From: Geoalkalibacter ferrihydriticus DSM 17813
GTDB lineage: Bacteria; Desulfobacterota; Desulfuromonadia; Desulfuromonadales; Geoalkalibacteraceae
Reading direction: 5' to 3'
Assembly: GCF_000820505.1 (NCBI RefSeq)
Contig: NZ_JWJD01000001.1
Span: forward strand, 131,094-195,093
DNA: 64,000 bases
Position 1 is the stretch's first letter; every line of letters starts with the position of its first letter. The notes under the pieces were generated by a model. It saw only the letters and a list, made by a program, of their open reading frames with translations, made no database searches and was not told the origin of the DNA. Shown piece by piece: positions 7,379 to 43,227 of the stretch. Made by a program: the position numbers and the translations under genes.

Positions 7379-8419
7379 TCAGTCCACCTGCAGCCGCCCG
7401 CTGGGATCGGCGGCAATGCGGCCGATGAGAAAGGCGGCGCAGCCGGCGGATAAGAGTTTGTCGCGCAGGGCGGCGGATTTGTCGGCGGCGACGCTGATAA
7501 GCAGACCGCCGGAGGTTTGCGGGTCGGCGAGCAGATCGAGAATTGGCGTGGATATCCGGGCGGCGTCGAGAACCTGTGGCAGGTAGTGACTGCGGTTGCG
7601 GTAACTGCCCTCGGGTATCAGGCCCATGGCGGCCATCTCCAGGGCACGGGGATAGGCGGGCAGGGCATCGCCTTGCAGGATTACGCATACCTGACTGGCC
7701 ATGGCCAGTTCGAGGGCGTGACCAAGCAGGCCGAAGCCGGTGATGTCGGTGCAGGCGTTGACACCAACCTCGAGCATGATCTCGGCGGCGCGCCGGTTGA
7801 GGGTTGCCATGCCGGTGATGGCTTCGCTCAGATCCGCTTCGCTTAAAATCTCGCCTTTGAGAGCAGTGGTGAGAATTCCGGTCCCCAGGGGTTTGGTCAA
7901 AAATAGAAGATCTCCGGCGCGCGCCCCGACCGTAGTGACCATTTTGCGCGGATCAACCAAGCCGGTGACGGAAAGACCGTACTTGGGTTCATCATCCTCG
8001 ACCGAATGGCCGCCGGCGATGACCGCTCCGGCCTCGGCGACCTTGTCGGCCCCGCCTTGCAGAACCGCGATGAGAGTCTCAACCCCCAGTTGACAGAGAG
8101 GAAAGCCGATGAGGTTGAGGGCGGTGATGGGCCGGCCGCCCATGGCATAGATGTCGGAAAGCGCATTGGCCGCGGCAATCTGGCCGTAGACGAAGGGATC
8201 GTCCACCACGGGGGTGAAGAAATCCACTGATTGCACCAGTGCCAGTTCGTCCGAGATGCGGTAGATACCGGCATCGGCGAAGGGAATGGCGGCCGACAGT
8301 AGATTCGGGTCGGTGGATTGTGGCAGTTGACGCAGAACCTGCGCCAGGGTTTCGGGCCCGATTTTGGCCGCTCAACCCGCTGAGCGTGATAAGCTCGTCA
8401 ACCGAACTTTGTGGTTCAT
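7379..8419 (-). CDS. selD: Selenide, water dikinase containing selenocysteine (Sec16, UGA at 8372-8374)
   Basis: SelD makes selenophosphate from selenide and ATP for selenocysteine insertion. A plain reading starts only at 8236, but the frame continues upstream through one TGA to an ATG at 8419 with a GGAG site. The joined N-terminus reads SRSAG-U-AAKIGPETL, the normal SelD active-site loop with selenocysteine in the place of Cys17 of E. coli. The total length of 346 residues matches the family. Downstream motifs include VDFFTPVVDDPF, NALSDIYAMGG, DITGFGLLGH and ADPQTSGGLL. It sits downstream of selB, separated by a hairpin, so it may also have its own promoter. Translation depends on the SelB and SelA encoded next door. 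Confidence 0.93.
8330..8345 (-). promoter_or_regulatory. SECIS-like hairpin in selD mRNA
   Basis: In the mRNA sense the segment reads GGCGCAGGUUCUGCGU. A CGCA/UGCG stem closes a GGUUC loop centred about 34 nt after the UGA codon. The apical part resembles the E. coli fdhF element (GCAGGUCUGC), in which SelB contacts the loop G and U. The distance is longer than in fdhF but within the range accepted for bacterial SECIS. This was folded by eye only. Confidence 0.5.
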
Positions 8420-16572: not shown

Positions 16573-16701
16573 GTCATCTGCCCTCAATAATAAATTAAAT
16601 TCATGTGCACGGTGATTGTATTTTTTATTTCCCTGAACAGCAATAGTATTTGTGAGACCTAATCAGTTGATCGACAATATCGAAGCACTGCGCGGCGCGA
16701 A

Positions 16702-25494: not shown

Positions 25495-26834
25495 GGTGCC
25501 TCCTTTGCGACGATGGTGAAGACCGGATTCTCCAGGGCGTTTTTGACATCCTCTGCGAGGTTGAGCAGACCTTTGTAGCCGCCGTAGCTCTTTTTTTTCT
25601 CCTGGTTGACGTCGATAAAGGCGATGCGTTTCTTGATCGCCGTGTAGAGGCTGCGGCCTCCAGCCAAGAGCAGATGGGCGCCGGTCCGGTCGATGATCTG
25701 TGCCTGTTCGGTGCCTGGGTTGGTCATCAATACCCCATTTTCTCCCAGGTACTGCCGAGCTTTTTCCTTGTCGTCTTCCGTCGCCTTGCGCACCGAGGTG
25801 GCCACGACCTCGACGCCCAGATCCTGCAATGCCGAAGCAATGGACCAGGATTTGTTGCCGCCGGTGTTTAAAATCGCCTTCTTGCCTTGAAAGAGGCGGC
25901 GGTAGGGGGCAAGCTTCTCATCCAGCCAGGCCTCCTCGCGGGTCACCAGGATGCGGGTTCGCTCGCACAGGTCTTTATCGCCCAGGGCCTCGGCAAGGGC
26001 GAGCAATCCGTTGCTGGTGTCGCGCTTTCCGTAGAAGGAGAGGGAAATGAAGGGAATGCCGTATTGCTCCTGCATCTTGCGAGTCAGGGATATCAGCGAC
26101 TTGGCGCAGACGATGACGTTGAGTCGGGCGCGGTGGGCGGTGCGGATATCGGCGATGCGGCCATCGCCGCTCAGGGTGGCGAGCACACGAATGCCGAGTT
26201 CTTCGAGCAGGGGCGTATATTGCCACATATCACCGGTGACGTTGTATTCACCAATCAGGTTGATGTCGAAAGGGGTGGTTTTTTCAGGTTCACGGGTTCC
26301 CACCAGGCTGGCCAGAACGGCTTCGCCGCCAAGGCGGCTGCCGAGATTCTTGCTGCCGACAAAGCCCGGTGCATGCACCGGAACCATGGGAATCCCATAG
26401 GTGTTTTGCGCCTGGCGACACACGGCATCGATGTCATCACCGATCAGGGCGGTCACGCAGGTGGCATAGACGAGGATGGCCTCAGGCGCATAATGCTGCA
26501 TGATGTAGGCAATGGCGTCGCGCAGTTTGTCTTCGCCGCCGAACACCACATCGTTGGTCGAGATGTCCGTGGTGAAACCCATCTGCGTAAAGTCTCGACC
26601 GGAATAGCTGGTGGGCGTGGCGCGGGTCTCCCAGGACGCGCCGAGGCAGGTAATGGGACCATGGACCAGATGCACGGCATCGGCGTAGGGGAAAAGAGAT
26701 ATTTGCGCACCTTCAAAAGCACAACCGCCGGTCGTGGCACCGGGAGTCTGCGTGTTGCAGGCGCTTTTTTTAGTGGGGCTGTGCGCACAGGCGCTTTCAA
26801 CGAGAAGCTCCTTGATTTTCGGCTTTTTTCCCAA
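25482..26834 (-). CDS. nifE: Nitrogenase iron-molybdenum cofactor biosynthesis protein NifE
   Basis: The 450-residue protein carries NifE marks: GGCAFEGAQISLFPYADAV, HGPITCLGASWETR and ILVYATCVTALIGDD, giving the cluster-binding cysteines. The start codon is TTG at 26832-26834 behind an AAGGA site; it is the only start that keeps the full N-terminus, so weak initiation is likely real. It heads the nifE-nifN-nifU/Q operon, with a sigma-54 type promoter about 77 bp upstream. nifH, nifD, nifK and nifB are not in the window. Confidence 0.95.
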   Translation of the reverse strand: MGKKPKIKELLVESACAHSPTKKSACNTQTPGATTGGCAFEGAQISLFPYADAVHLVHGPITCLGASWETRATPTSYSGRDFTQMGFTTDISTNDVVFGGEDKLRDAIAYIMQHYAPEAILVYATCVTALIGDDIDAVCRQAQNTYGIPMVPVHAPGFVGSKNLGSRLGGEAVLASLVGTREPEKTTPFDINLIGEYNVTGDMWQYTPLLEELGIRVLATLSGDGRIADIRTAHRARLNVIVCAKSLISLTRKMQEQYGIPFISLSFYGKRDTSNGLLALAEALGDKDLCERTRILVTREEAWLDEKLAPYRRLFQGKKAILNTGGNKSWSIASALQDLGVEVVATSVRKATEDDKEKARQYLGENGVLMTNPGTEQAQIIDRTGAHLLLAGGRSLYTAIKKRIAFIDVNQEKKKSYGGYKGLLNLAEDVKNALENPVFTIVAKEAPWEK

Positions 26835-27721: not shown

Positions 27722-28005
27722 AAGAGTCTCCTCAGGTTGAAGTTTCATGCAAAACAATACCATAAATTTATTTGTCCGCAGGGATAATAGGCTGGAATTA
27801 TGCCCTTAGTTAAAAAAAATCAGAAAAGGGAGATTTTCCCTGGAATCAAAGGGAGTTATCATTAACGTTGGAATCTTGAAATAAACTTTCCTTTAGGTCG
27901 TTTGAATGATTGACCTATAGGACTTCATTGTGAGACATTAAGAAAAATTTTGAATTTTTCAAAATCTGCCCTATCTGACCTGGGTTCCGAACCCCGAGTG
28001 GATTG

Positions 28006-28932
28006 ATGTTTCGACGCCGGCTTTCTTCACTGTTTTTGCTCATTTTCTTATGGGTTTTTCTGTTTTTTCCGGTGACCGGCACCTGCTGGGCGCAAGCCAG
28101 GGTTGCCGTGCTCTATCCTCAGGTTCAAGAACCCTTTCTTTCTGTATTCCAAAGCATTCTCAGAGGTGTTGAGTCTGATCCAGGTCTCAGCGTCCGATCC
28201 TTTTCCCTGCCTGAAAATTTGGATACCAAGGCCCTTGATGCCTGGCTTGAGGCTGAACAGGTTGATTCGGTTATTGTTCTGGGTCGTCAAGGCGCGCGGG
28301 CCGCGCAAGTCCTGAAGGGACCCTCAAAAATTATCGTCGGCGCATTGCCTGCCGCGGTACAAGGCCTTTCCGGCATCAGCCTGTCCCCCGCTCCAGAAGT
28401 CTTGTTCCGGCATCTCAGAGAACTGGCGCCCAAGGTCAGAGATATTCATGTCGTCTATTCCGAGGTCAATGCCTGGTTGATCCCCTGGGCTGAGTCCGCT
28501 GCTGCCGCTCAGGGGCTGGATTTTACCGCTTACCGGGTTCAGGATCTGCGCGAGGCGGTGCATGAATATCGCAACTTGCTGCAAACGTTGCGCGGTCCGT
28601 CACAAGCAATCTGGCTACCTCTGGATAACATCACAGCCGATGATGAGCTGGTACTGCCACTGGTTCTGCAGGGATCGCTCGAAAGAGGACTTGTGGTTTT
28701 TTCAAGCAAGCCCGCACATGCTCAACGTGGGGTTCTTTTTACCGTTTTTCCCGAGCATTTCGCCATGGGACAAAGTCTGGCGCGGATGGCCACTTCAGGT
28801 CAGCAATCCACCGGAATTGTTCCGCTGGCCGATGTGCAGTTGGCCGTTAACCTGCGTACGGCATTTCATCTTGGGTTGCGTTTCACCCCGCGCCAGCAAG
28901 AGAGATTTGATCTGGTTTTCCCAACCCGTTGA
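28006..28932 (+). CDS. Periplasmic substrate-binding protein of the ABC_sub_bind type
   Basis: This 308-residue protein has a signal peptide (LLIFLWVFLFFPVTGTCWA-Q) and then a two-lobed binding fold. RVAVLYPQVQEPFLSVFQSI, SVIVLGRQGARAAQ and IHVVYSEVNAWLI correspond to the uncharacterised ABC substrate-binding family (PF04392). No ABC permease or ATPase is adjacent. Instead, a histidine kinase gene follows 10 bp later and a TonB-dependent receptor after that. The protein therefore may act as a ligand sensor for the kinase rather than in transport; that is inference. The start is the ATG at 28006. Confidence 0.8.
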   Translation: MFRRRLSSLFLLIFLWVFLFFPVTGTCWAQARVAVLYPQVQEPFLSVFQSILRGVESDPGLSVRSFSLPENLDTKALDAWLEAEQVDSVIVLGRQGARAAQVLKGPSKIIVGALPAAVQGLSGISLSPAPEVLFRHLRELAPKVRDIHVVYSEVNAWLIPWAESAAAAQGLDFTAYRVQDLREAVHEYRNLLQTLRGPSQAIWLPLDNITADDELVLPLVLQGSLERGLVVFSSKPAHAQRGVLFTVFPEHFAMGQSLARMATSGQQSTGIVPLADVQLAVNLRTAFHLGLRFTPRQQERFDLVFPTR

Positions 28933-28942
28933 AGATTTGGTA

Positions 28943-30589
28943 ATGATGCGCGCTTTCGCCGAGAAACGAAAATTATTTTCCAGTTTCCGCACACGCCTTC
29001 TGGGGATCGTGACATTGGGAATTCTCTGCCTGGCTTTGACTGCCGCCCTGATGACGGCCTGGGTGAGTGGTAATCGAACCCGTGCGCAGATGGTGGCCCA
29101 GGGGCTTCAGGTGACGGATACTCTTGCCGGACAAAGCGCGCTGGCTCTTCTGTTCGGTAGTCGCGAGAACGCTGAAAAACCTCTGCTGGCCATCATGGGA
29201 TTTCCCCATGTCGATTATGCCGGAATCTTTGATCCGGACGGCCGGGCTCTGCTTATCGTCGGTGCCGATCACGCGTCCCTGCCACCCGTGCGACGCATCG
29301 CAGCGGGCGGGGTCCCCGCCCTGGCCCGCGAAACGCCTTTTTCCTGGCATTTTGTATCGCCGGTTTACGCAGGTTCTTCCAGCGAAATGTTAAATCCCAC
29401 AGAATCTCCCTTCGATTTGGAGGCGCCGCCTAAAGAACTTCTCGGGTTTGCCTACGTGACCATGAACAAGCGAGCCCTGCATACCCTCAATATGGATATT
29501 TTCATCAACAACCTGATTATCGGCTTGTCTTTTGCCGCAGTCATTGTGTTCGGCCTGAATATCGGCATCAAACGCTTATTGCGACCGCTGGATGAATTAT
29601 CGGCGCTCATGCGCGAAGCCGAAGAAAAAAACGGTTATGTGTTTGCCGATCTCAAAGGACCTGAAGAAATCACCCACATGGCCGGCGTGTTCAACCGCAT
29701 GATGACCAGTTTGCAGGAGCGCGACCGGGGACTGCGCCAGCACAAGGCGGTTCTCCAGACCGAGGTGGCGCTGCGCACTCGCGAACTTGTGCAGGCCCGT
29801 GATGCCGCCTTGAGCGCCAATCGCTACAAATCCGAGTTTCTCTCCAGCATCAGTCACGAACTGCGTACCCCTTTGCAGGCGATCATCGGCTACGCCGACG
29901 TGGTCCGTGAAGATCTGGAAATGGAAGGCATGGATGCAAGTGCTCAGGAACTTGAGCGGGTGATTCACAACGCCAACCGCCTGTTGTCGCTGATCAATGA
30001 TATTTTACTGTTGGCCAAGGCCGAAGCGGGTCGCATGGAGGTGCGGTTACAGAGCGTGGATTTGCATGTTTTGGTCAAGGATGCCGTTGAAACGATGCAA
30101 CCCCTGCTGGCAACAAACGATAATCGTCTCTCGCTGGATATCCATGCCGAAGCGGATGTTGAAATCGACCGTGAAAAGCTTCTCCAGTCCCTGCTCAATC
30201 TGCTCAGTAACGCCGCCAAGTTTACCACTTCCGGCACAATAGCGCTTAAGGTGGCGCAGACGCCGCGGTTGTTGAAAATCCTGGTGGCCGATACCGGCAT
30301 CGGTCTGACGTTGGAGCAGCAACGCATGATTTTTGAAGAATTCCGACAAGTCGATGGCAGCTACACCCGCAAGTTTGAGGGCACGGGGCTTGGTCTTACC
30401 ATCACCAAGCGGTTCTGTGAAATGATGGGGGGAACCATCGATGTGCAGAGTGAACCAGGCCGCGGCTCGACCTTTACCATTTATATTCCCCTGCCTGTTT
30501 CTGTCGCCGGGGATGCGCCGGCTCAGGCAGGTGAGGAACAGTTAAGTTTTGATACGACTCTGTTCGAATCGGGAGATGGTTTGCAGTGA
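28943..30589 (+). CDS. Membrane-bound sensor histidine kinase
   Basis: I start at the ATG pair at 28943; the open frame upstream is an out-of-frame shadow of the previous gene. The 548-residue protein has TM1 (about 14-36), a periplasmic domain of about 150 residues, TM2 (about 190-213), HAMP, HisKA (FLSSISHELRTPLQAIIGYADVV) and HATPase (LSNAAKF, GTGLGLTITKRF). There is no receiver domain and no response regulator next to it. It is tightly linked to the upstream binding protein, so a periplasmic ligand passed through that protein is a reasonable signal. Confidence 0.88.
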   Translation: MMRAFAEKRKLFSSFRTRLLGIVTLGILCLALTAALMTAWVSGNRTRAQMVAQGLQVTDTLAGQSALALLFGSRENAEKPLLAIMGFPHVDYAGIFDPDGRALLIVGADHASLPPVRRIAAGGVPALARETPFSWHFVSPVYAGSSSEMLNPTESPFDLEAPPKELLGFAYVTMNKRALHTLNMDIFINNLIIGLSFAAVIVFGLNIGIKRLLRPLDELSALMREAEEKNGYVFADLKGPEEITHMAGVFNRMMTSLQERDRGLRQHKAVLQTEVALRTRELVQARDAALSANRYKSEFLSSISHELRTPLQAIIGYADVVREDLEMEGMDASAQELERVIHNANRLLSLINDILLLAKAEAGRMEVRLQSVDLHVLVKDAVETMQPLLATNDNRLSLDIHAEADVEIDREKLLQSLLNLLSNAAKFTTSGTIALKVAQTPRLLKILVADTGIGLTLEQQRMIFEEFRQVDGSYTRKFEGTGLGLTITKRFCEMMGGTIDVQSEPGRGSTFTIYIPLPVSVAGDAPAQAGEEQLSFDTTLFESGDGLQ

Positions 30590-30683
30590 AGATGGATGCA
30601 GTGACTGGACCTCTGAAAGAGTTAATCCGTCATTTGCAGCAATGAAGGGGAGTGGCGCAGCCAGTGCAAAAGGAGGTAAATTC

Positions 30684-32837
30684 ATGCGTAATGGGTTGAT
30701 GTGCCTGGGGCTGACGGTCCTCCTATCCCTGCCTTGGAGCGGTTCGGCGCAAGCACTGGAGGGGTTGGACCCCGAATCCCCCATGCTTCAGGAGATGCGT
30801 GATTTTTACGGCGACGAAGCCTTTATCACCATTGCCACCGGCAGCCGCAAACCGATCTACAAGGCACCGGCCGTGGCCACGGTGATTACCTCCGCGGAAA
30901 TCAAGGCCATGGGCGCGCGTAATCTCGACGAGGTGCTGGAAACCGTGGCCGGGCTGCATGTGGTGCCGTCCACTCAAGGACGTCTTGACTCGATCTACTC
31001 CATCCGCGGGATTCACACCAGCTTCAATCCTCAAGTGCTGGTGTTGATGAATGGTATTCCTTTCCCTCATTTCTCCGGGGGACGGCCCTTTCATTTCCGT
31101 CTGCCAGTGAACGCCATTGCTCGGGTGGAGGTTATTCGCGGCCCCGGCTCGGCGGTCTATGGCGCCGATGCTTTTGGCGGGGTGATCAATATCATTACCA
31201 AGGATGCCTCCGACATTCAGGGCACTGAGATCGGAGGTCGGGCAGGATCGTTTGATACCCAAGATCTATGGCTTCAACATGGCAGACCGTACGGTGAATG
31301 GGACCTTGCTTTCTCTCTGGAATGGCAAAAAAGCGCCGGCGACCGGGACCGTCGGATTGCAGCGGATCAACAGACCATTATCGATAACCGTTTTAACACG
31401 AACGCTTCACTTGCCCCTGGGGCCCTGAGTACCCGTTATGATGTGCTCGATACGCATTTGAATCTGAGTCGTGATAACTGGCAGTTGCGCTATTGGCTTT
31501 GGCGGCAACAGGATGCCGGGCTGGGGGCGGGCAGTGCCCTGGCGTTAGATCCCGTGGGCGAGGAAAGTCTGACTCAGCATCTCGTGGATTTAACCTATTC
31601 CACAGCTGATCTCGTTGCGGATTGGGACTTCCGTCTTAATGCACATTATCTGCATCGTGACAGCGAAAGCCGGTTTGTGGCGTTTCCGCCGGGCGCTATT
31701 CTCCCCATAGGAAGCGATGGCAATCTGAGTTTTTCCGAAACCGCCAATTCCGTGTTGTTTACCGAGGGAATGATCGGTAAACCCGTGGGTGAGGAAGACG
31801 GCGGCGGCATCGATTTCGCCGCGGTTTACACCGGCATGGCCGATCATCGCTGGCGAATTGGTGCTGGTGTCAAAAGCTTTAGATTCAAGCTTGAAAAAGA
31901 AGAAAAAAATTTTGGTCCTGGCGTTATCGATGGAACCAGACCGGTCGTTGATGGTACGTTAACGAACATAACAAACACCGAATTTGTCTTTTTGCGTGAT
32001 GCTTCACGCACCGTCTGGTATCTGTCGCTGCAGGACGAATGGCAATTTGTGCCCAATTGGGAACTGACCGCTGGTGTTCGTTATGATCATTATTCGGACT
32101 TTGGCGACACGGTAAATCCGCGACTCGCTTTGGTTTGGGCCACTCGCCACGATCTGACCGCGAAAATTCTATATGGCCGAGCGTTTCGCGCTCCTTCATT
32201 CAGTGAACAGTTCTCCATTAACAATCCTGTGGGCTTGGGTAATCCCGATTTGGATCCTGAAACAATCGATACCCTCGAACTTTCCTTTGACTACAGGCCC
32301 ACGTTTGATTTACAGACAAATCTTTCCGTGTTTGCTTATCGCGCCAGGGATTTAATTGAGTTTGCTGCCGATCCCGGAGGAACTACCCGGACGGCGCAGA
32401 ATGCCCGGGATCAAGACGGGTATGGGTTTGAACTGGAAATGGATTGGCGGGCTCTCGATACACTGCGATTGCAGGGGTATTATGCCTGGCAGCGTTCCAA
32501 AGACGTGGAAACGAAGCAAAGGATTGCGGATGCACCTGGGCAAATGGTTTATTTAGCGGCGAAATGGGAATTTCTTCCAGAGTGGGAGATTTGCCCTCAA
32601 TATCGATGGATCGGAAGCCGTAAACGTGCCATAAGCGACCCTCGAGGGGTTATAGACAACTATTCTCTGGTTGATGTGATTATTAGAAAAAATCGTATTT
32701 TTGGACTATTCGACACGGCCTTCGCGGTGCGCAATATTTTTGACGAGGATGCTCGCGAGCCGAGCAGCTCAGTCATTGCCGGTGACTACCCCCTTGAGGG
32801 CCGCCAAGCGTGGGCCGAAATCAGTTACAGGTTCTGA
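30684..32837 (+). CDS. TonB-dependent outer-membrane receptor
   Basis: The 717-residue protein begins at the ATG at 30684 behind AGGAGG, with a signal peptide (LGLTVLLSLPWSGSAQA). The plug domain follows (VATVITSAEIKAMGARNLDEVLE, SIRGIHTSF, VIRGPGSAVYGADAFGGVIN). The rest is a beta barrel ending in the outer-membrane signature ...WAEISYRF with a C-terminal Phe. It imports a scarce ligand with TonB energy. Loops lack clear siderophore or cobalamin marks. It ends 2 bp before the first citrate-synthase-like gene, so the receptor and that pair seem to be one transcription unit. Confidence 0.92.
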   Translation: MRNGLMCLGLTVLLSLPWSGSAQALEGLDPESPMLQEMRDFYGDEAFITIATGSRKPIYKAPAVATVITSAEIKAMGARNLDEVLETVAGLHVVPSTQGRLDSIYSIRGIHTSFNPQVLVLMNGIPFPHFSGGRPFHFRLPVNAIARVEVIRGPGSAVYGADAFGGVINIITKDASDIQGTEIGGRAGSFDTQDLWLQHGRPYGEWDLAFSLEWQKSAGDRDRRIAADQQTIIDNRFNTNASLAPGALSTRYDVLDTHLNLSRDNWQLRYWLWRQQDAGLGAGSALALDPVGEESLTQHLVDLTYSTADLVADWDFRLNAHYLHRDSESRFVAFPPGAILPIGSDGNLSFSETANSVLFTEGMIGKPVGEEDGGGIDFAAVYTGMADHRWRIGAGVKSFRFKLEKEEKNFGPGVIDGTRPVVDGTLTNITNTEFVFLRDASRTVWYLSLQDEWQFVPNWELTAGVRYDHYSDFGDTVNPRLALVWATRHDLTAKILYGRAFRAPSFSEQFSINNPVGLGNPDLDPETIDTLELSFDYRPTFDLQTNLSVFAYRARDLIEFAADPGGTTRTAQNARDQDGYGFELEMDWRALDTLRLQGYYAWQRSKDVETKQRIADAPGQMVYLAAKWEFLPEWEICPQYRWIGSRKRAISDPRGVIDNYSLVDVIIRKNRIFGLFDTAFAVRNIFDEDAREPSSSVIAGDYPLEGRQAWAEISYRF

Positions 32838-32839
32838 AC

Positions 32840-33670
32840 ATGAAATCAAAACATGAGAACATTACCAGTCGTGAGCAAATCTTTGCCCAGCGCCCAGCAA
32901 CAAGGGTTTGGGAGGAACAATCCAGCGAAGAGAATCCTTACCTTGCATCGGCTCTTCGCTGTCATGGTTACGATCTTCATGAGCTAATGGAAAAGCGCAG
33001 CTTCATTGATGTCCTGTTTTTGCTATTTCGCGGGGAACTGCCAACCGGCGATCAATCTCAAATCTTGGAAAAGTTGATGATCGGTCTCATCAATCCCGGT
33101 CCTCGTCATCCGGCAACTCGCGCCGCCATGCATGCCGGGGTCGGAAAAACAAATCCCGCTCACATTCTGCCCATATCTTTGAGCATTATGGGAGGCGCCC
33201 ACCAAGGCGCCGGCTGTATTGAACCAGCCATGCGTTTTTTTCGCCAGGCCGCAAAGCGTGATCCGAAAATCGTTTGTTGCGAATTGCTTCAAAGGGAAAA
33301 ACGGCCAACTGAGGGTGATTGGCATCCCGTCCCGGGTTTTGGTAGCCGGTTTGGCGGTATAGATGAGATGCCAAGGAAACTAGCTGATCAATTGAGCCGA
33401 CTTCCCGGCGCAGGCAAAGCGCTTTTGTGGGGATGTTCCTTCTCGGAAATCCTTCGCCCCTATGAAATAGGCTGGCAGTTTCCAGGTGTGGCAGCAGCGG
33501 TGTTGGCGGATATAGGTTTCCACCCCAGGGCAGGAGCCGGGCTTTTCCAATACTTTCAAGCTCCAGGTTTGCTCGCCCATGGCCTGGAAATGGTCAACAA
33601 ACCCTTGACTGCCCTTCCTTTTCCGTCCGACGAAAACTATTTCATCGAGGTGGATTCCGATGGCCACTGA
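32840..33670 (+). CDS. Citrate synthase-like protein, first of a pair, altered active site
   Basis: The 276-residue protein is about two thirds of citrate synthase length, in the size range of citryl-CoA-lyase-like proteins. It keeps the first active-site His in IMGGAHQGAGC. The second His position (normally GFGHR) reads GFGSRF, and the Asp position (normally NVD) reads WQFPGVAAAVL, so two of three catalytic residues appear changed. It overlaps the next gene, another citrate-synthase homologue, by 11 bp, which suggests a heteromeric enzyme. The start ATG at 32840 lies 2 bp after the TonB receptor stop. The substrate is unknown. Confidence 0.75.
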   Translation: MKSKHENITSREQIFAQRPATRVWEEQSSEENPYLASALRCHGYDLHELMEKRSFIDVLFLLFRGELPTGDQSQILEKLMIGLINPGPRHPATRAAMHAGVGKTNPAHILPISLSIMGGAHQGAGCIEPAMRFFRQAAKRDPKIVCCELLQREKRPTEGDWHPVPGFGSRFGGIDEMPRKLADQLSRLPGAGKALLWGCSFSEILRPYEIGWQFPGVAAAVLADIGFHPRAGAGLFQYFQAPGLLAHGLEMVNKPLTALPFPSDENYFIEVDSDGH

Positions 33671-34487
33671 TACCCGCTATTGGGACGAACGCCGTGGCAA
33701 GATACACTCCCTTAAGGGAGGGTGGGTCATGGGAAAGGGTGTTTTCTCTCATGGCTTTGAGATGAACAAGGACCTCATGGGAAAGGTTTCCTTTTTCCAG
33801 GTTCTGATTCTCAATGCCATCGGGCGACTGGTTGAAAAACCCCTGGCAGATTGGTTCGAAGCCATGCACGTCGGGCTGAGTTGGCCTGATGCACGTATCT
33901 GGTGCAACCAGATTGGCGCTCTAGGAGGCACCATGCGTTCGTCGGTGGTTGCCGCGACGGTTGCAGGAATATTGGCAGCGGATTCTCGTGCCTATGGTCA
34001 AGGAACCATTCTTGAAGGTTTCGCTTTTATCGAACGGGTCTTCAAGGGCGCAAGGAAGGGCAAAAGTGTAAAATACATCGTGGCGGAAGAGTGTGCCCGC
34101 CATGGTGGCAAACCGAAATTTATGGGATATTCCCGACCAATAGCCAAAGGCGATGAACGCTTGGCTGAATTTTTCAATATCCAGAAACGCCTAGGGTTTC
34201 CTGTCGGAGAACATCTTTCCTTGGCTTTGGAGATTGAGAAAGTTTTGCTTGAGGATTTTGATGAGGCCATGAACTTTAACGGCTACATCTGTGCTTTTCT
34301 GGCCGATCAGGGTTTGACGGCGCAGGAGGCCTATCAGGTGTGCGCGGTACTTGTGACCAGTGGCGTTACAGCCTGCTACGTCGATACTTTCGAACGACCT
34401 CCAGAATCTTTTTTGCCGATGCGTTGTGAAGACATTGACTATCAGGGCCCGCCACCGCGGCCGGTGCCATTGCCGGACGAGCGTTAA
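33660..34487 (+). CDS. Citrate synthase-like protein, second of a pair, altered active site
   Basis: The 275-residue protein is homologous in plan to its upstream partner: a segment before AYGQGTILEGF in the first-His region (no His there), GYSRPIAKGDERL in place of GFGHPxYKxGDPR, and NFNGYICAFLADQGL in place of NVD. It therefore lacks the classical His-His-Asp set but keeps the frame of the fold, including the dimer-helix part CYVDTFERPPE near the end. The start overlaps the previous gene by 11 bp. It ends convergent with the ThDP enzyme. Likely acts with its partner; chemistry unknown. Confidence 0.72.
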   Translation: MATDTRYWDERRGKIHSLKGGWVMGKGVFSHGFEMNKDLMGKVSFFQVLILNAIGRLVEKPLADWFEAMHVGLSWPDARIWCNQIGALGGTMRSSVVAATVAGILAADSRAYGQGTILEGFAFIERVFKGARKGKSVKYIVAEECARHGGKPKFMGYSRPIAKGDERLAEFFNIQKRLGFPVGEHLSLALEIEKVLLEDFDEAMNFNGYICAFLADQGLTAQEAYQVCAVLVTSGVTACYVDTFERPPESFLPMRCEDIDYQGPPPRPVPLPDER

Positions 34488-34547
34488 TCCAGTTCAAACG
34501 ACGAACGACTAAGGATTTTTCCCTGGCCGTTTGAGTTTTTGTTTTTT

Positions 34548-36305
34548 TTATCTTTCCAGCGTCTTCATGCGAAAACCCATGGGTTGAACCTCTTCGGGAT
34601 CGATCTGTACGTCGAGAACAGTCGGACCGGATCGGCGGCAAAGTGCATCGAAATCGAGGTTGTCGAAATCCTCCATGGTGTGGATGTTGAGGCCAACAGC
34701 CCCCATGGCGCGGGCCATCTGTGCGAAATCCACCGGCGGCAACTCGAAACCCACGGGTTCGGCCCCTCCTAGACGTTGTCCGTGCTTGATCGTCCCCAGA
34801 GCTTGATCGTTAAGCACGACATAGATAACGGGCAATTTTTCCATCACTGCAACGGTTAGTTCCTGGCCACTCATCAGCCAACTACCGTCTCCAGTAAGGC
34901 AGACCACAGGTTCGGTCGGACAACCAACCGCGGTGCCGACGGCCGCCCCTATGCCCCAACCCATTGCGCCGAAACCCATTGCGATACGGTAAAGCCCTTG
35001 GCTTTTAGGCAGAAGATAGTGCATCGACCAGGCCCAGCAACTGCCCGCATCGATGATGAATCGTGTAGAGGCGGGAAATCTGATCGGCAAATCACGCATT
35101 AGCCGCTGTGGCTTGATAGGGACGGCATCGGAATGAAATTTTTCTGGTTCGTTGAGGGTCAAGTGATGAGGGGCACAGCGGGCATACACGAGGCGAAACC
35201 GCTGACGATGTTCTTTTTGCAGGCGCTCATTGAGGGCGCGAAAGATAGTATCAATGGTGCCGCAGACATGCAGGTGCGCAAGAGGCGCAAGATAGAAGTT
35301 TTCGGCAGTCACATCGATCTGGATCAGTTTTTCCTGAAATGCTTTGCTTTTCCCGAGTTTGCCGAAGGCCAACTCATCCATGCGCGTTCCGACTGCCAGG
35401 ATCAGATCCACCTCTGCGCAATTGATGGTCCGGGCGGCACTTTCGTGGCCTCCGAAGCCGAGCACGCCGTGATACCGGGGGTGGTCATGGTCTGCCCAGC
35501 GCTTGCCCGCGGGCCCGCTGACGATATGGGCATTCGTGGCTTCGGCAAAGTCCGTAATGGGAGACATGGCGCCGCCGCAATCCTCACCGAGCACCAATAC
35601 AATGCGCGAACTTTTTGCAACGGCATCGTAAAGAGCATCGATCGCCTGCTGATTGGTCATGTCGTGACTATTGAACAGGCTTTTGAACAAAGGGGTATAG
35701 GCATCAGCGCGCAGGCGCCGGGGTGAGGCCAATACATCCATGGGAATACTCAGATGGGCAGGCCCGGCGGGTGGACCCTGGGTCGCGAGGATGGCGGAGA
35801 GAAGTTTGCCTTCGAGTTGTCCGCGATGCGACACCAGGCTGCTGAAACGGGTGCATGATTGAAACATGGCCACTGTATTGACCGCCGTGCAGGAGGATTC
35901 CTGCAAAGTTCTTTTGCCGAATTGGGGCAGGGCGGTCTGGGCGGTCAGAACCAGCATCGGAATGTTGTCGGAATAGGCCGAAGCCACCCCGGTGATGAGG
36001 TTGGTCGCACCCGGCCCGGTGGTGGCGCAGCACACCCCGAGTTTGCCTGTTTCACGGGCGTAGCCGTCGGCCATGAACGCCGCCCCCGCCTCATGGCGGG
36101 CGACGATGGTGCGCAACCCGCCGCGCCGAGCGCTGCGCGCCATGGCGTTGTAGAGGGGTTCGATGGCGCCGCCGGGAACTCCGAAAATATATTCGACCCC
36201 GATGCCTTCCAGATACTCAACGACCAGGTCGCCTAACTCGGGTTGTCTTGCAGGTTCTGTCACAGGTGGTGTGTCGACAATTTCTGATACCCTGAAGTCA
36301 CCCAT
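34548..36305 (-). CDS. Thiamine diphosphate-dependent enzyme, acetolactate synthase-like
   Basis: The 585-residue protein shows all three ThDP-enzyme domains. The PYR domain has the catalytic Glu in IVARHEAGAAFMADGYAR; the central domain runs about 210-350; and the PP domain has the cofactor motif GDGSW...VVLND. It resembles the catalytic subunit of acetolactate synthase or related carboligases (glyoxylate carboligase, sulfopyruvate decarboxylase). No regulatory ilvN is adjacent, so a role outside branched-chain amino acid synthesis is likely. A GGAG site precedes the ATG at 36305. It faces the citrate-synthase-like pair, which suggests shared carbon-carbon chemistry. Confidence 0.88.
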   Translation of the reverse strand: MGDFRVSEIVDTPPVTEPARQPELGDLVVEYLEGIGVEYIFGVPGGAIEPLYNAMARSARRGGLRTIVARHEAGAAFMADGYARETGKLGVCCATTGPGATNLITGVASAYSDNIPMLVLTAQTALPQFGKRTLQESSCTAVNTVAMFQSCTRFSSLVSHRGQLEGKLLSAILATQGPPAGPAHLSIPMDVLASPRRLRADAYTPLFKSLFNSHDMTNQQAIDALYDAVAKSSRIVLVLGEDCGGAMSPITDFAEATNAHIVSGPAGKRWADHDHPRYHGVLGFGGHESAARTINCAEVDLILAVGTRMDELAFGKLGKSKAFQEKLIQIDVTAENFYLAPLAHLHVCGTIDTIFRALNERLQKEHRQRFRLVYARCAPHHLTLNEPEKFHSDAVPIKPQRLMRDLPIRFPASTRFIIDAGSCWAWSMHYLLPKSQGLYRIAMGFGAMGWGIGAAVGTAVGCPTEPVVCLTGDGSWLMSGQELTVAVMEKLPVIYVVLNDQALGTIKHGQRLGGAEPVGFELPPVDFAQMARAMGAVGLNIHTMEDFDNLDFDALCRRSGPTVLDVQIDPEEVQPMGFRMKTLER

Positions 36306-36480
36306 AAAATTCTCCTCGATGTAATGACCATCAGCAACGGTAACTGTTCAGCAGGCACCGTGGAGCGCGGCGGCATCGCGTGCGGCAAAAACTCGCCTGC
36401 GGCTCAGACATTTGCCGCAACACTTTCGGACGTTGCAGTTGAACAGTTCCTGAATAATTTCCGACTTGCCGAGCGGGGTC

Positions 36481-38943
36481 CTAGGTTAGTCCGAGAGCAT
36501 CCACCGGCAGGGGGCGGCCGATGTGATGGCCTTGTGCGTAATCAATACCCAATTTGGTCACAAGATCCAGCACCACCTGGTTGTGAACGAATTCGGCGAT
36601 GGTTTTTTTGCCCAGGGTGGCGGCCACTTCACAGATGGAGCGCACCAGAACCTGGTCAATGGGATCGCGGTCGAGATTCCTGATAAAACTGCCGTCGACT
36701 TTAACGTAATCGGCGGGAAACTGCTTGAGGAAACCGAAGGTGCTGAAACCTGTGCCGAAATCATCCAGGGCGAATGCGCACCCCAGATCGTTGAGTTGAG
36801 TCATCATGTGCTGCGCACCGCTGATGTTGCTGATGCTGGCGCTTTCCGTCAGCTCAAACATCAGGCGGCGTGGTTCGACGCCGTGCCGGTGCAATTGCTC
36901 CTCTACCAGGGGCACCAGATCCAAATCGCTGAAAGCTTGCGCCGAGAGATTGACGGCGATGCGCCGCAATCCGGGGTAGTTCTTGAGGTGGTCGACGGCT
37001 TGTCGGATAACCTGGTGGTCGAGCAAGGTCATTTCGCCGGCGCTCTCGAGGGCTGGAATAAATTCACCGGGAGAAACGATGCCGCGCTCGGGCAGATCGA
37101 GGCGCACCAGAGCTTCGTAATGGACAATTTCACCGCTGGCGATATGCATGATGGGCTGAAAATACAGCAGCAGGCGATTATCCTCGATGGCGCGACGAAG
37201 ATGCCGGACCCAGTTGAGCCTGGCACGCAAGGCGTCATTCTCCCGGTCTGCGGGGTCATAAATCTGGATGCGATTGCGGCCCCGCCGTTTTGCCGCATAA
37301 AGAGCGATGTCGGCTTGCTTGAGGTATTCTTCGGCGCTACCGGCGCTGCCGTCAATTTCACTGACGCCGACGCTGCAACTGAGTTCCAGGGATTGCCGCG
37401 CGTCCATTTGCAGCGAATGACCTTGAATGATCTGAGACATCTCGTTGGCCACTTGGCAAGCCTGTGTTAAATCGGCGTCGGGAATGAGAATGGCGAATTC
37501 GTCGCCGCCCAAGCGGCACAAAACGTCGGATCGGCGCAGTCGTGATTTCATCAACTCGGCAATTTCACGCAGGATGGCATCGCCGCGTTGGTGGCCGAAA
37601 TTGTCGTTGATGACTTTGAAATGATCAATGTCCAGATACAGCAAGGCATGGCTGGCTTTGCCCCGGGCGCTGACCGCGGCCATACGACGCAGGGAGCCAT
37701 TGAAGTAGTGGCGATTGTAAAGGCCGGTGACGCGATCATGCATGTTGAGAAAATCGAGTTGTTTCTGGGTTTTCTTGCGCTCGGAAATGTCGTCCAGGCA
37801 GCCGAAAATAGTGCGTCGGCCGCCTGGAGATACCATGGAATTGAGTCTGAACTCGACCCAGAGCACGGCACCCTGTTTGTCGAGCAGGCGCATCTCACCC
37901 TGAAGTTCGTGCAATTTGGCTGACAAAAGCGGTCGCAGACCGTCACCGTCGGGCAGCAGAAAAGAGGCGAGGGGCTTGTTCAGTGACTCGTCCAACGAGA
38001 AACCGGTAAGTTCGGTCCATGCCTGATTGAGAAAGGCAATTTCTCCATCATGATCGAGTTCGACCACGACCGTGCGCAGATTGTCCAGCAGACGCTGATG
38101 GGTTTGTGAAACCTGGTGAAAGGCTTCCGTGCGCTCCTTAACCTCGCGGACACGCGCGGCAAATTGCGCGTTGCTCACCAGATAATCTTCACGCCGCACA
38201 GCCAGTTCACACACGCGGCGCAACTGATCGGCCCTGAATGGCTTGGCGATGAAATCTGCGGCACCCTGATGCATGAGCTTTTCGGCCAGCTCGACACTGC
38301 TGAAGGCGGTCATGACGACCACCGGCTGGGCGTTGTCGAGTTTGAGGATTTCGGCAAGAACCTCTGGCCCGGACATCTCGGGAAGCATGGTATCGAGCAG
38401 CACAAGATCATGACGACGGGCGGTCCAGGCGGCTAGGCCAGAAGGGCCGTCCACAGCGATTTCGACGTCGAAACGGTGACTCAGTACGCGCTGGGCGATT
38501 TGCGCCGTATCGGGCGTGTCCTCCACGACCAGTACCGTTGGATTACGAAAGGCTTCCGTCGGGGTGTTCAGGCAGTTTTGCACCACCTGTGGCAGACGTT
38601 GATAATGTTCCAGGGCAACCAGCGCGTTCACGCCGAATTCGCGGGCGGTGGTTTCTGCAATGCGTTCACACCAGGTTTTGGCAACGACGATGATGGGGAT
38701 ATCACTTTTGCATCTGAAGACACCGCTGCGAATCAGGCGCGCCAACCGCCAGCCGTCGAGGCTGGGTACTTCGATGTCGGTAATCAGCAGATCAACAGGG
38801 GTCGTGCGAAGCATCTGTGAGGCGCTCAGTCCACACTGGCCTTCAGAGATATGCGTATATCCCGCTTCTTCCAGTAACCTGCGCAACATGCAGCGGATTT
38901 CCGCGGCGCTGTTGACCAAAAGGATATGGGAATTTGTGGGCAT
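36481..38943 (-). CDS. Double receiver-PAS-GGDEF-EAL cyclic-di-GMP protein
   Basis: The 820-residue soluble protein has two receiver domains. The first (about 5-125) has LLITDIEVPSLDG; the second (about 140-255) has LVLLDTMLPEMSG. A PAS module follows (about 280-400), then GGDEF (about 415-570; RLGGDEFAIL intact, with an RRSD inhibitory site five residues before it) and EAL (about 580-815; YEALVRLD, with ELTESASI and DDFGTGFS present). Both enzymatic halves look intact, so it could make and degrade cyclic-di-GMP under phosphorylation control. No kinase is adjacent. Confidence 0.93.
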   Translation of the reverse strand: MPTNSHILLVNSAAEIRCMLRRLLEEAGYTHISEGQCGLSASQMLRTTPVDLLITDIEVPSLDGWRLARLIRSGVFRCKSDIPIIVVAKTWCERIAETTAREFGVNALVALEHYQRLPQVVQNCLNTPTEAFRNPTVLVVEDTPDTAQIAQRVLSHRFDVEIAVDGPSGLAAWTARRHDLVLLDTMLPEMSGPEVLAEILKLDNAQPVVVMTAFSSVELAEKLMHQGAADFIAKPFRADQLRRVCELAVRREDYLVSNAQFAARVREVKERTEAFHQVSQTHQRLLDNLRTVVVELDHDGEIAFLNQAWTELTGFSLDESLNKPLASFLLPDGDGLRPLLSAKLHELQGEMRLLDKQGAVLWVEFRLNSMVSPGGRRTIFGCLDDISERKKTQKQLDFLNMHDRVTGLYNRHYFNGSLRRMAAVSARGKASHALLYLDIDHFKVINDNFGHQRGDAILREIAELMKSRLRRSDVLCRLGGDEFAILIPDADLTQACQVANEMSQIIQGHSLQMDARQSLELSCSVGVSEIDGSAGSAEEYLKQADIALYAAKRRGRNRIQIYDPADRENDALRARLNWVRHLRRAIEDNRLLLYFQPIMHIASGEIVHYEALVRLDLPERGIVSPGEFIPALESAGEMTLLDHQVIRQAVDHLKNYPGLRRIAVNLSAQAFSDLDLVPLVEEQLHRHGVEPRRLMFELTESASISNISGAQHMMTQLNDLGCAFALDDFGTGFSTFGFLKQFPADYVKVDGSFIRNLDRDPIDQVLVRSICEVAATLGKKTIAEFVHNQVVLDLVTKLGIDYAQGHHIGRPLPVDALGLT

Positions 38944-40264: not shown

Positions 40265-41083
40265 TTATTGGGGCAGGTTGGTCACCGCCTCGCGAATCTC
40301 ACGCAGTTTTGCCTTGATGATCCGAGCGTTGTCCGGACCGATGCGAATCATGAGCTTCTGTCCCGCCGAGAGTGCTTCGAGTTCCGGGTCGACGAAGCGG
40401 TAACGGACCACGTGTTGTGCGACCCGTACAGGCTCGGTGACCTGGGGGGTGGCCAGTAGATGATCAATCACCGCGACCAGTCGATCGTTGAAATATCCCG
40501 TGGGATGACCCAATTGGCGGTACGCCTGCTGAAACAAAGGATAGAGACGCACATAGACGGCCACCGCCCGGCGAGTGTCGACGGCATCCACAAGTCTGAC
40601 GAAGGTGCCGTAGCGGCGCTGATTCTGGGGGCTGATGACCTGCTCACCTTCAGGGCCTTCGACCATGAAAGAGCCGGGGGTGGGTTTGGTGGGCAGAAGC
40701 CGCACCGGTAGATCTTTTTGCGGCAAAGTATCGATTGTAACCGTGATGCGCTGAATGATGTTGTTGAGTACAAAAAGCTCACTCAACTCCTGCCCGGGGA
40801 AAAAACTGGCGAGGTGGTCCTGCATTTCCGCATCGCTTTCATTCAGGGTGGGCAGCGGCCGAATGGGTTCGACGGGCTCCGGGGTGGCCTCCTCCACAAC
40901 CGGCGGAGGCACTTCCGGAACCGGATAACGCATGGCGGGCTCTTCGCGCGTTGGAAGTGGCTGGGTCGGTGTTTCCACCAGGGGTTGCGGCTCAGGATCA
41001 CGATGCCGGGTGCCTTGCCAATAGAAAAACCCGGCAACTCCGACGAGAACCACAACGACCAGTGCGATCAATGTTTTTTGCAT
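40265..41083 (-). CDS. DUF3014 family membrane-anchored protein
   Basis: The 272-residue protein has one N-terminal transmembrane anchor (LIALVVVVLVGVAGFFYW), a Pro/Glu-rich linker (about 30-80) and a C-terminal domain with the DUF3014 pattern. The pattern is LFVLNNIIQRITVTIDTLPQ, then RRYGTFVRLVDAVD and VYVRLYPLFQQAYRQLG. The globular part should face the periplasm. The family is typical of Proteobacteria; its function is not known. It appears to be a single gene. Confidence 0.85.
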   Translation of the reverse strand: MQKTLIALVVVVLVGVAGFFYWQGTRHRDPEPQPLVETPTQPLPTREEPAMRYPVPEVPPPVVEEATPEPVEPIRPLPTLNESDAEMQDHLASFFPGQELSELFVLNNIIQRITVTIDTLPQKDLPVRLLPTKPTPGSFMVEGPEGEQVISPQNQRRYGTFVRLVDAVDTRRAVAVYVRLYPLFQQAYRQLGHPTGYFNDRLVAVIDHLLATPQVTEPVRVAQHVVRYRFVDPELEALSAGQKLMIRIGPDNARIIKAKLREIREAVTNLPQ

Positions 41084-41349
41084 GGCTTTTTCCTTAGGGT
41101 GCTTGGTTGTGGAGTTTTATTTTTGTCCTCCGGATTGTCGTTGCTCAATCGATAAAAGGGGATAGTCTCTCAAAAACCCGGCGGTCGCTGAAAAAATTGA
41201 TATAAGAGTATCGAGAATCCTCTTATTGGCAACTCCTTGCGTGCAAACTCCGGACAGGCAAAATTCTGCCAAGGCTGCAGCGTCTGTCCTTGGCGATGGC
41301 AGCACTGATTTCCGTGCGATTGGAAAAATTCAAGCATGAGGTAAAAGTT

Positions 41350-43227
41350 ATGCCCGGCTCATTGAAGCTTTTGTTTGACCCTGCCAGAGAGCAGGAAGTG
41401 CATGAAAAACTTGCTCCCCTATTTGAAGCCCAGGAGGTTGAAATCCTCCCTTTTCTGCTCAAGGCGCTTCCTGAGTGGGGCGAAGACCAGAGGGTCGTCA
41501 CATATCTCAGCGACGAGGATATGTATGAGCTTGTGCCCCTGGCAGCCGAACGGGGCTGGTGCCTGGGCTTGCTTCCCCATCCGGACATGGAGCATGCCTT
41601 GGCCGGCTATGGCATTGCAAAGAAACTCGAAGATGCGGTTGCCGATATTCTGGCCGAGCCCAAGGAGCGGCGCGTTGACCTGTTGTTCTGCAATGGTCGT
41701 CCGGTATTCCACTCGGTGGTTTCCGGTCAGGTATTCGGTTTACGCCCAGCCGCCGATGTGGAGGGCCTGAGCGTGAGATTTTCCAGCTTTCTCAAACGCC
41801 TGAAGGGTCTTGGCAAGCTGCGCCCACAGCTTTTTCAGATACTGACTCAACAGGAAAAAAACCTCGAAACCGCGGCGCTGGGTGTCGTGGTGGTCGAGCA
41901 TGCGCGCAACTCGGTACTCTCGCGCAGTATCCTACCTGACACCAACATCAATGACGGCAAGCTGCATGCCCTGGTGCTGGCGCCGCGCAGCTTGATGGAG
42001 ATGCTGCGTTTTTTGGTCAACGCCTTGTTTTTGGGCGGTCGCCGAGGGGGGCGGCGGGCTCCTTTTATCGGCCATATTCGCACGGGATGGTTGAAAATAT
42101 CCAGCAATCAGCCTTTGGAGTATGTCCAGGACGGCGCCTGGCTGAGCAGCCAGGAGTTGGTCTTCGAGGTATCCTCCCGAGTGCTGCGCCTGATCCCCGG
42201 CCGCGACCTGGATATTGATGAAGGAGACATCTCGGATAAAGAGGTTTTCCGGATTCAGGCTCTTCCGGTCGGTGAAGCCTGCAAAGAATTGATGGCCAAG
42301 CCGCTGCCAATCATGTCCCATGCGGCAACCGAAGAGTTCCGTGATCTCTATGAACACCTCTGGGCGAACGCGCGAACGACGCCCCATTATCTCACCCTGA
42401 CGGTGCTTGCCGCCCTTTTGGCAACCGTCGGCCTGTTCGCCGATTCTTCGCCGGTTATTATCGGCGCGATGATTCTAGCCCCTACCATGGGTCCCATCAT
42501 TTCTCTTTCCATGGCCGTCGCCCGTCAGGACGCGGCGCTTCTTGGCAGTAGCCTGCGCACCCTGGGGCTTGGGATTGCGCTGGCATTGGGCTTTTCTGCC
42601 GTGGTCGGATGGCTGATGCCGCTGCGCGTGGTAACACCGGAAATCGCGGCGCGCCTGAGCCCGACCTTGCTGGACCTGGGCGTTGCGGTCATTTCGGGGA
42701 TCGCCGGTGCCTATGCCCATGCCCGGGAGGAAGTGGTCAAGAGCCTGGCGGGCGTGGCTATCGCCGTAGCCCTGGTGCCGCCCCTGGCGGTCGCGGGCAT
42801 CGGCATCGGCTGGATGAATTGGGAGGTTCTCTGGGGAGCTCTGCTGCTGTTTCTGACCAATCTCTCCGGTATTGTGTTGATGGGCACTCTAACTTTTCTG
42901 GTGTTGGGCTTCGCTCCCTTTCACCGCGCCAAACGTGGATTACTGTTATCCGTGCTGCTGGTTGGCCTGGTGTGCGTGCCGCTGGCGTTTGGTTTTGTAC
43001 GCATGCAGCAAGAGCAGGCCATCGTGCGCGCTCTGGAAGGCATGGAGGTGCATAATGTGGTCCTCCGTGATGTCGCGGTACGCAGGGGAGAGCCGATTTA
43101 TCTATCCATGCGCCTGCTGTCGGCGACATCCATCGACGATGTGGCACTTGACGAGATAAAAGCGGCGATTGAAGAGCGAATTGGTCGTAGCGCGGTGGTG
43201 GAGGCGGCTGTCGGGGTCAGACGGTGA
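41350..43227 (+). CDS. DAGK-like domain fused to a DUF389 membrane domain (TIGR00341 family)
   Basis: I prefer the ATG at 41350, which has a GAGG site 8 bases away; the frame could start at 41296. The 625-residue protein has an N-terminal soluble part (MPGSLKLLFDPA on) with a segment resembling diacylglycerol-kinase catalytic proteins (residues about 150-310). The DUF389 membrane part follows (about 340-560), with PVIIGAMILAPTMGPIISLSMA and VAIAVALVPPLAVAGIGIG marking its six or so transmembrane helices. Function is unknown; the fusion hints at lipid or nucleotide phosphorylation tied to a membrane channel-like unit. Confidence 0.85.
   Translation: MPGSLKLLFDPAREQEVHEKLAPLFEAQEVEILPFLLKALPEWGEDQRVVTYLSDEDMYELVPLAAERGWCLGLLPHPDMEHALAGYGIAKKLEDAVADILAEPKERRVDLLFCNGRPVFHSVVSGQVFGLRPAADVEGLSVRFSSFLKRLKGLGKLRPQLFQILTQQEKNLETAALGVVVVEHARNSVLSRSILPDTNINDGKLHALVLAPRSLMEMLRFLVNALFLGGRRGGRRAPFIGHIRTGWLKISSNQPLEYVQDGAWLSSQELVFEVSSRVLRLIPGRDLDIDEGDISDKEVFRIQALPVGEACKELMAKPLPIMSHAATEEFRDLYEHLWANARTTPHYLTLTVLAALLATVGLFADSSPVIIGAMILAPTMGPIISLSMAVARQDAALLGSSLRTLGLGIALALGFSAVVGWLMPLRVVTPEIAARLSPTLLDLGVAVISGIAGAYAHAREEVVKSLAGVAIAVALVPPLAVAGIGIGWMNWEVLWGALLLFLTNLSGIVLMGTLTFLVLGFAPFHRAKRGLLLSVLLVGLVCVPLAFGFVRMQQEQAIVRALEGMEVHNVVLRDVAVRRGEPIYLSMRLLSATSIDDVALDEIKAAIEERIGRSAVVEAAVGVRR

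Follow-up and report, generated by a model that had tools for sequence, protein, structure and literature searches.

In a 64,000-nucleotide stretch of the Geoalkalibacter ferrihydriticus DSM 17813 genome (the whole stretch is called the window below), two overlapping genes, CS1 and CS2, encode paralogues that have the fold of citryl-coenzyme A (CoA) lyase and do not carry the complete catalytic triad of citrate synthase. They belong to a seven-gene cassette (28003-38943) that also encodes a thiamine diphosphate (ThDP) enzyme, a TonB-dependent receptor and sensory proteins. We recognised no description of this cassette in one library of open-access literature; it is real and conserved and, as far as that library shows, undescribed, with a known citrate-synthase-type fold in a new genetic setting. 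The mechanism of citrate synthase, a textbook enzyme, is defined by a single triad. Co-inherited homologues that lack this triad and stand beside a carbon-joining enzyme imply that the fold either supports another chemistry or is put to a non-catalytic use. Tentatively, we consider it a real possibility that the seven genes work as one conserved cassette for making and sensing a small molecule.

Fold and active site of CS1 and CS2

CS1 has 276 residues when read from the ATG at 32840 (the mechanically called open reading frame, ORF, begins at a GTG at 32810), and CS2, which starts at 33660 and overlaps CS1 by 11 bp, has 275. CS1 passes the PF00285 cut-off narrowly (29 bits versus 27) and matches the citryl-CoA lyase of Hydrogenobacter thermophilus, 6hxp, in a PDB sequence search (E 2.3e-18). 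As a single sequence CS2 matches no Pfam family and no citrate synthase in the PDB, its best NCBIfam citryl-CoA lyase model reaching E 1.2e-13, under the cut-off; a 58-sequence CS2 profile reaches 6hxp at E 1.8e-15, and a comparison of the CS1 profile with the CS2 profile aligns 219 columns (E 9.5e-11). The AlphaFold2 models have mean pLDDT (predicted local distance difference test) values of 92.3 for CS1 and 89.6 for CS2, and both show the citrate-synthase large-domain fold when compared with VIA: among the best matches listed, the CS1 model is closest to 6hxp (Z 23.0, 242 residues aligned, root-mean-square deviation 4.5) and the CS2 model to 6hxj (Z 21.6, 261 aligned, deviation 5.2; Z 21.1 for 6hxp). 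On the strength of these profile, pairwise-profile and structural matches, CS1 and CS2 are, as modelled, full-length paralogues with a citryl-CoA-lyase fold.

The likeness to citryl-CoA lyase, and to the corresponding module of ATP citrate lyase (ACLY), covers the full-length fold (Z 21-23) and the size of about 270 residues, with 22-23% identity to 6hxp. Unlike citryl-CoA lyase, however, CS1 and CS2 come as two paralogous genes together, CS1 has only part of the His/Asp set and CS2 none of it, and their scores lie far under the NCBIfam cut-offs (for the curated PRK06224 models, 76.3 versus 212 bits for CS1 and 50.9 versus 245 bits for CS2). With citrate synthase and 2-methylcitrate synthase (PF00285) they have the fold in common, but they are shorter than E. 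coli GltA (427 residues) and differ from it in having D362 and H305 replaced, H264 variable or Tyr, and R387 absent.

In GltA the catalytic His/His/Asp residues are H264, H305 and D362, and the substrate-carboxylate arginines are R314 and R387. We mapped these positions by sequence alignment with GltA, the canonical citrate synthase of the same genome and 6hxp as references, with a one-column ambiguity at the H264 and H305 sites of CS1 and CS2. All three references have H305 and D362; H264 is kept in GltA and the genome's own enzyme, while the His of 6hxp lies one column off. The corresponding residues are H121, S169 and P215 in CS1, and Y112, S158 or R159 (R159 being in the H305 column itself) and N207 in CS2. 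An R387 equivalent is absent from both window proteins, and an R314 equivalent occurs in CS2 only (R167, in 72 of 72 aligned), so that the pair has neither the full catalytic set nor both arginines. The earlier note, made from the letters of this DNA, had described two overlapping short citrate-synthase homologues, the first keeping only the first active-site His and the second none of the three residues. For this genome that description is borne out by the ORFs, the 6hxp match, the profiles and the AlphaFold2/VIA comparison, and when the profiles are aligned with their best structural matches, the triad reappears in neither window protein.

Relatives came from a scan of named genomes with two peptide patterns, SWPD[APS]RIW and RPIAKGDE, both taken from CS2 loops, which gave 121 CS2 relatives, the best 80 of which were analysed. 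At the first site CS1 (n=80) has H in 49, Y in 17, F in 11, R in 2 and V in 1; because His occurs in only 49 of 80 relatives, the sole remaining His of CS1 is, to judge from these sequences, no family trait. The second site of CS1 holds S in 50, A in 6, Q in 6, T in 5, K in 4, N in 3, V in 3 and other residues in the rest (in 9 of 80 the next column has a His), and the third T in 43, P in 24, V in 5, S in 5 and A in 3. In CS2 (n=84) the first site is Tyr in every sequence (Y112 here), the second A in 60, S in 7, I in 7, V in 5 and others, and the third N in 60, G in 8, A in 7 and others. Even with one column of slack, the full triad was found in 0 of 75 CS1 and 0 of 72 CS2; two triad residues were found in 6 of the 75 CS1, and not one in any of the 72 CS2. 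A profile search of a 247-genome phylum sample, which used no peptide patterns, yielded three further pairs, at loci L104, L105 and L107 (L and G numbers are our labels for loci and genomes), the first close to the set (61-68% identity) and the other two divergent (32-37%), and the triad was missing in all three. CS2 R159, D165 and R167 and CS1 R89 were kept in 3 of 3, and CS1 H90 was Asp in two of the three.

These counts bear on whether CS1 and CS2 could use their remaining residues to make an ordinary citrate- or methylcitrate-type product. We regard this as very improbable: the presence of H121 in this genome, the retained R167 of CS2 and the six CS1 sequences with two triad residues within one column fit such a product, but H121 is not conserved, a full triad is absent from both slack-tolerant sets and from all three pattern-independent pairs, and the genome encodes a separate canonical citrate synthase. 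A role as an ordinary tricarboxylic acid cycle enzyme is disfavoured too, since the genome has its own canonical citrate synthase.

At the same time, conservation in CS1 is higher in the former active-site loops (entropy 1.16) than elsewhere in the protein (1.54), with only 12 of 265 circular shifts as low, a null that is not a phylogenetic one; the most conserved of these loops is NPGPRH. With all loops of CS2 included, 1 of 270 shifts is as low, a value that reflects selection in part because two of the loops served as search patterns. Conservation of this kind has to be set against the main rival explanation, in which CS1 and CS2 would be a non-catalytic hetero-module that binds CoA or a metabolite and regulates or scaffolds the ThDP enzyme or a short-chain dehydrogenase/reductase (SDR). 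In its favour, the triad and the R387 equivalent are lost in both proteins, the ThDP partner is near-constant, and a natural CS2-SDR fusion exists (see below). There is also a precedent, as the citrate-synthase (homology) domain of human ACLY is argued to be non-catalytic and allosteric (PMC10115795), and the same could hold for CS1 and CS2, to the detriment of any catalytic proposal. We nevertheless consider the module unlikely, because the conserved CS1 loops suggest a working site, as do the CS2 residues R159, D165 and R167, kept even in the pattern-independent pairs, and because the ThDP gene lies far off in some genomes.

Distribution and gene neighbourhood of the pair

CS1 directly precedes CS2, in the same orientation, at 80 of 80 loci (the best 80 of 121). 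The pairing seen in the window is conserved, and the lack of pairing elsewhere that the earlier note had named as a refutation was not observed. In the window the seven genes are arranged as follows.

28003-28932, + strand: first cassette gene, a PF04392-like periplasmic binding protein (SBP) with a signal-peptide-like start
28562-30589, + strand (start of the mechanically called ORF): sensor histidine kinase, HisKA-HATPase with a weak HAMP match
30549-32837, + strand: TonB-dependent outer-membrane receptor, with Pfam Plug and barrel domains
32840-33670, + strand: CS1, citryl-CoA-lyase fold by homology and AlphaFold2, with H121/S169/P215
33660-34487, + strand: CS2, paralogue of CS1 by profile and AlphaFold2, with Y112/S158/N207 and R167 kept
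34548-36305, - strand: ThDP enzyme of acetolactate-synthase type with three TPP_enzyme Pfam domains, a probable carboligase
36481-38943, - strand: REC-REC-PAS-GGDEF-EAL regulator, by Pfam

The receptor gene ends 2 bp from the start of CS1, the ThDP gene is convergent to CS2, and the GGDEF-EAL regulator gene, which has the same orientation as the ThDP gene, lies 175 bp upstream of it. Pfam matches are clear for the receptor (Plug E 8.6e-24, barrel E 1.3e-41) and the kinase (HisKA E 6.3e-18, HATPase_c E 3e-27), the true start of which is probably just past the end of the SBP gene, and weak for the SBP (PF04392 E 3.1e-4; 20.5 bits, cut-off 25.9). This seven-gene order was found on one stretch in five relatives and is cut by contig ends in two more.

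Carriers are mostly Gammaproteobacteria (Cellvibrio, Colwellia, Teredinibacter, Motiliproteus, Aliikangiella), Gallionellaceae, Desulfuromonadales (for example Malonomonas), Desulfobulbaceae and kin (Electrothrix) and Magnetococcales. One Polarisedimenticolaceae metagenome-assembled genome (MAG) has two CS pairs, and a single Nitrospirae MAG and a single Chloroflexi MAG, the latter possibly misbinned, carry the pair as well. The trait is patchy: a CS1 match was found in 9 of 58 genomes, our own included (in one of them, G050, it spans just 44 residues), CS2 in 4 of 247 genomes of the phylum sample, again with our own, and no CS2 relative among PLSDB plasmids at E 1e-5. In three Magnetococcales loci (L093, L098, L099) the cassette is reduced to ThDP-CS1-CS2, and the pair is followed by a protein of 1,727-1,771 residues and a LuxR-like response regulator; in L098 the large protein after CS2 is a Ser/Thr kinase-AAA-GAF-histidine kinase.

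We compared neighbourhoods over 85 loci (the window, four relatives and 80 named-genome loci), which are related and not phylogenetically independent. Recurring families were the TonB receptor (74), the ThDP enzyme (65), a kinase/receiver (48), a GGDEF-EAL protein (47), a periplasmic binding protein (38), a YfiR-type protein (20) and LuxR-like regulators (5); the ORF families of the window's SBP (family 6) and histidine kinase (family 5) were found in 27 and 31 of 86 sources. In the 48 full-flank loci, those with at least 7 kb on either side, the TonB receptor was present in 44, the ThDP enzyme in 41 and some sensor or regulator (sensor, kinase or cyclic di-GMP (c-di-GMP) genes) in 45. As background, 20 random windows of 20 kb, taken from four carrier genomes, held no TonB receptor, no ThDP enzyme and no binding protein, one GGDEF-EAL protein and four kinases, with any sensor or regulator in six. 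The families were built on the CS loci by single linkage and the background windows scored by pairwise match, so this comparison somewhat favours linkage. The link to a TonB receptor and a ThDP enzyme that the earlier note had pointed out thus stands well above background; the sensing half (45 of 48 loci versus 6 of 20 background windows) and the tailoring genes described below were missing from it. Its suggestion that this linkage points to a new carbon-carbon chemistry or to a ligand-binding use of the fold is partly supported. A signal, if there is one, might be synthesised by the enzymes linked to these sensors. The sensors themselves vary in type: binding protein with kinase, YfiR(DUF4154)-kinase-receiver, PAS-kinase-receiver, phosphonate-type binding protein, and Ser/Thr-kinase-GAF-kinase.

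Elsewhere in the window, two neighbouring nitrogenase component 1-type proteins (24199-26834, - strand; Oxidored_nitro, E 1e-77 and 2e-93) are NifE/NifN-like by inspection; two other loci of the genus, L016 and L017, have such a pair beside the cassette too, but it was not found within the L018, L019 and L020 stretches. A 1519-residue CheB-CheR-PAS-kinase-receiver fusion protein is encoded at 12028-16587 (- strand), and a DUF3014 protein (40265-41083, - strand) and a DUF389 protein (41290-43227, + strand) lie near the cassette. Promoter-like sites (10 versus 6.5 +- 2.3 in shuffles) and terminator-like sites (16 versus 14.2 +- 3.9) showed no clear excess and were not used. A part in anti-phage defence was rejected, CS1, CS2 and the ThDP enzyme having no PADLOC match at E 0.001.

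The ThDP enzyme and tailoring genes

The Glu of the RHE motif is a catalytic residue of ThDP enzymes. The window's enzyme has this Glu, all three TPP domains and the GDG...ND cofactor motif, as expected of the acetolactate-synthase type, and in these features it resembles its nearest solved structures, BbmA (8x3x, E 2.1e-87) and CsmA (8x3z), which come ahead of acetolactate synthases. It misses the acetolactate synthase cut-off of TIGR00118 (300.9 versus 538.35 bits), and it differs from other acetolactate-synthase-like enzymes in belonging to a subfamily tied to CS1/CS2.

The co-occurrence survey suggested by the earlier note gave a positive answer: the ThDP gene is nearby in 41 of the 48 full-flank loci, and in the other 7 of 7 a ThDP enzyme 41-53% identical is encoded elsewhere in the genome. 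More widely, 20 loci lack a complete ThDP gene; among the 15 of these genomes that were tested, 12 encode a match at another place in the genome (E 1e-60 or better). The other five loci are L029, L035, L050, L088 and L095, four of which have a ThDP fragment near a contig end. In L067 and L042, short ThDP-like stretches just upstream of CS1 (~8,160-8,250), with a longer copy elsewhere in the genome, may be remnants. A ThDP match at E 1e-100 was found in 9 genomes of the 247 in the phylum sample. Five of the nine form a group apart at E 2e-145 or better, a threshold set post hoc at a gap, and include all four genomes with CS2; the other four, at 1e-110 to 1e-100, were taken as ordinary relatives. 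In nine loci, mostly of Desulfobulbaceae and kin (L065, L066, L068, L076, L083, L084, L091, L097, L100), the ThDP enzyme is only 31-35% identical to the window's, and therefore two ThDP subfamilies may partner the same CS pair.

Around this core, relatives carry genes that could modify a product. An SDR reductase occurs anywhere in the locus in 20 of 85 (several kb off in L093 and L098), and in a Cellvibrio MAG a natural fusion joins CS2 to an SDR (L077:9947-11536). There are O-methyltransferases in 4 of 85 loci (L052, L063, L084, L100; a Pfam check bears out L052 only), sulfotransferases in L069, L080 and L104, an asparagine-synthase-like gene directly 3' of CS2 in L075 and L102, an AMP-ligase gene in L101, and, in L076, a weakly PapA/condensation-like gene that separates TonB from CS1.

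Such genes matter for the reading of the cassette as a catabolic or uptake operon, in which the TonB receptor would import a compound sensed by the SBP-kinase pair and degraded by CS1/CS2, working in the lyase direction, and the ThDP enzyme. TonB receptors and periplasmic binding proteins typically belong to uptake systems, the nearest structural relatives of CS1 and CS2 are lyases, and an ABC-transporter-type ATPase occurs in 6 of 86 loci (by inspection). But the asparagine-synthase-like, sulfotransferase, O-methyltransferase and AMP-ligase genes fit synthesis, no widely recurring transporter or catabolic family is found among families in at least four loci, and GGDEF-EAL proteins are the most frequent output (47 of 85, against 5 of 85 for LuxR-like regulators), all of which makes degradation distinctly unlikely in our judgement.

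A candidate make-and-sense pathway and known systems

A small-molecule pathway with a reader would be expected to combine a constant core with tailoring and sensors that vary, as these loci do. In the pathway we propose, the ThDP enzyme, going by its family, would couple a 2-oxo acid with an acceptor and so yield an alpha-hydroxy-keto(acid). CS1 and CS2 would form a hetero-oligomer on the citryl-CoA-lyase fold, hold an acyl-CoA or related thioester, and either condense it with the ThDP product or cyclise that product. With the ThDP product as nucleophile, the citrate-synthase fold would need no acetyl-CoA deprotonation, and for this reason loss of the triad could be tolerated. The product would then be released, in relatives optionally after reduction, methylation, sulfation or amidation. 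Judging from gene linkage, the TonB receptor could import it, and the SBP and histidine kinase could detect it and would then set c-di-GMP via the GGDEF-EAL protein. In favour of the pathway stand the constant pairing, the co-occurrence with ThDP, the contrast with the random windows, the tailoring genes and the CS2-SDR fusion, the conserved loops of CS1, and the CS1 and CS2 residues kept in the three pattern-independent pairs. The data show the fold, the triad loss, the pairing, the linkage and the ThDP co-occurrence, while the heteromer, its substrates and product, the uptake and the sensing are inferred.

Several observations weigh against such a pathway. Among recognised exporter families, only the ABC-type ATPase, in 6 of 86 loci (by inspection), is seen in four loci or more. 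The TonB family is missing in four full-flank loci and any sensor family in three, and non-SDR tailoring genes occur in few loci, the SDR itself being counted anywhere in the locus. Of the 15 genomes tested for a distant ThDP gene, three (L026, L032, L064) have no match at E 1e-60, and the fifth genome above the post hoc threshold, G203, has a close ThDP enzyme without the CS pair. The signal of a working site is also sensitive to which loops are counted: leaving out the H226/229 and H305/R314 loops weakens it for CS1 (27 of 242 shifts as low), CS2 loop conservation is not significant without the two pattern-bearing loops (54 of 247), and the divergent pair L105 has lost CS2 R79 and has Phe for Y112. 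The ThDP relative of G203 (L103:8616-11614) is ~50% identical to a cassette member and adjoins HD-GYP-like and ABC-transporter-like genes (by inspection).

A broader version of the make-and-sense proposal seems to us doubtful. It would be a widespread, so far undescribed system for signalling or for a public good, with a ThDP carboligase and a triad-less two-subunit enzyme of citrate-synthase fold building a new small molecule, with TonB uptake, a periplasmic sensor and c-di-GMP output, and with clade-specific tailoring that creates chemical "dialects". If making and sensing are indeed combined, the cassette would represent a communication route for Desulfuromonadales, cable bacteria, Gallionellaceae and Cellvibrio, one that can be tested starting from the genes.

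Two known systems offer comparisons. LuxP/LuxQ-type autoinducer circuits combine a periplasmic binding protein with a sensor kinase, and the cassette is like them in having candidate synthesis genes beside an SBP, a kinase and a downstream regulator. Unlike them, it has another candidate chemistry, a TonB receptor and a GGDEF-EAL protein, and its signalling role is a proposed one. For the chemistry, a parallel comes from the carbazole pairs CqsB3 or NzsH with CqsB1, in which a ThDP enzyme makes an alpha-hydroxy-beta-keto acid that then undergoes thioester condensation (PMC7466098). The second enzyme of these pairs differs, being KASIII-like, using an acyl-ACP (acyl carrier protein) and having no citrate-synthase fold (PMC7466098), but the logic of a ThDP step followed by condensation is the one we propose for the cassette.

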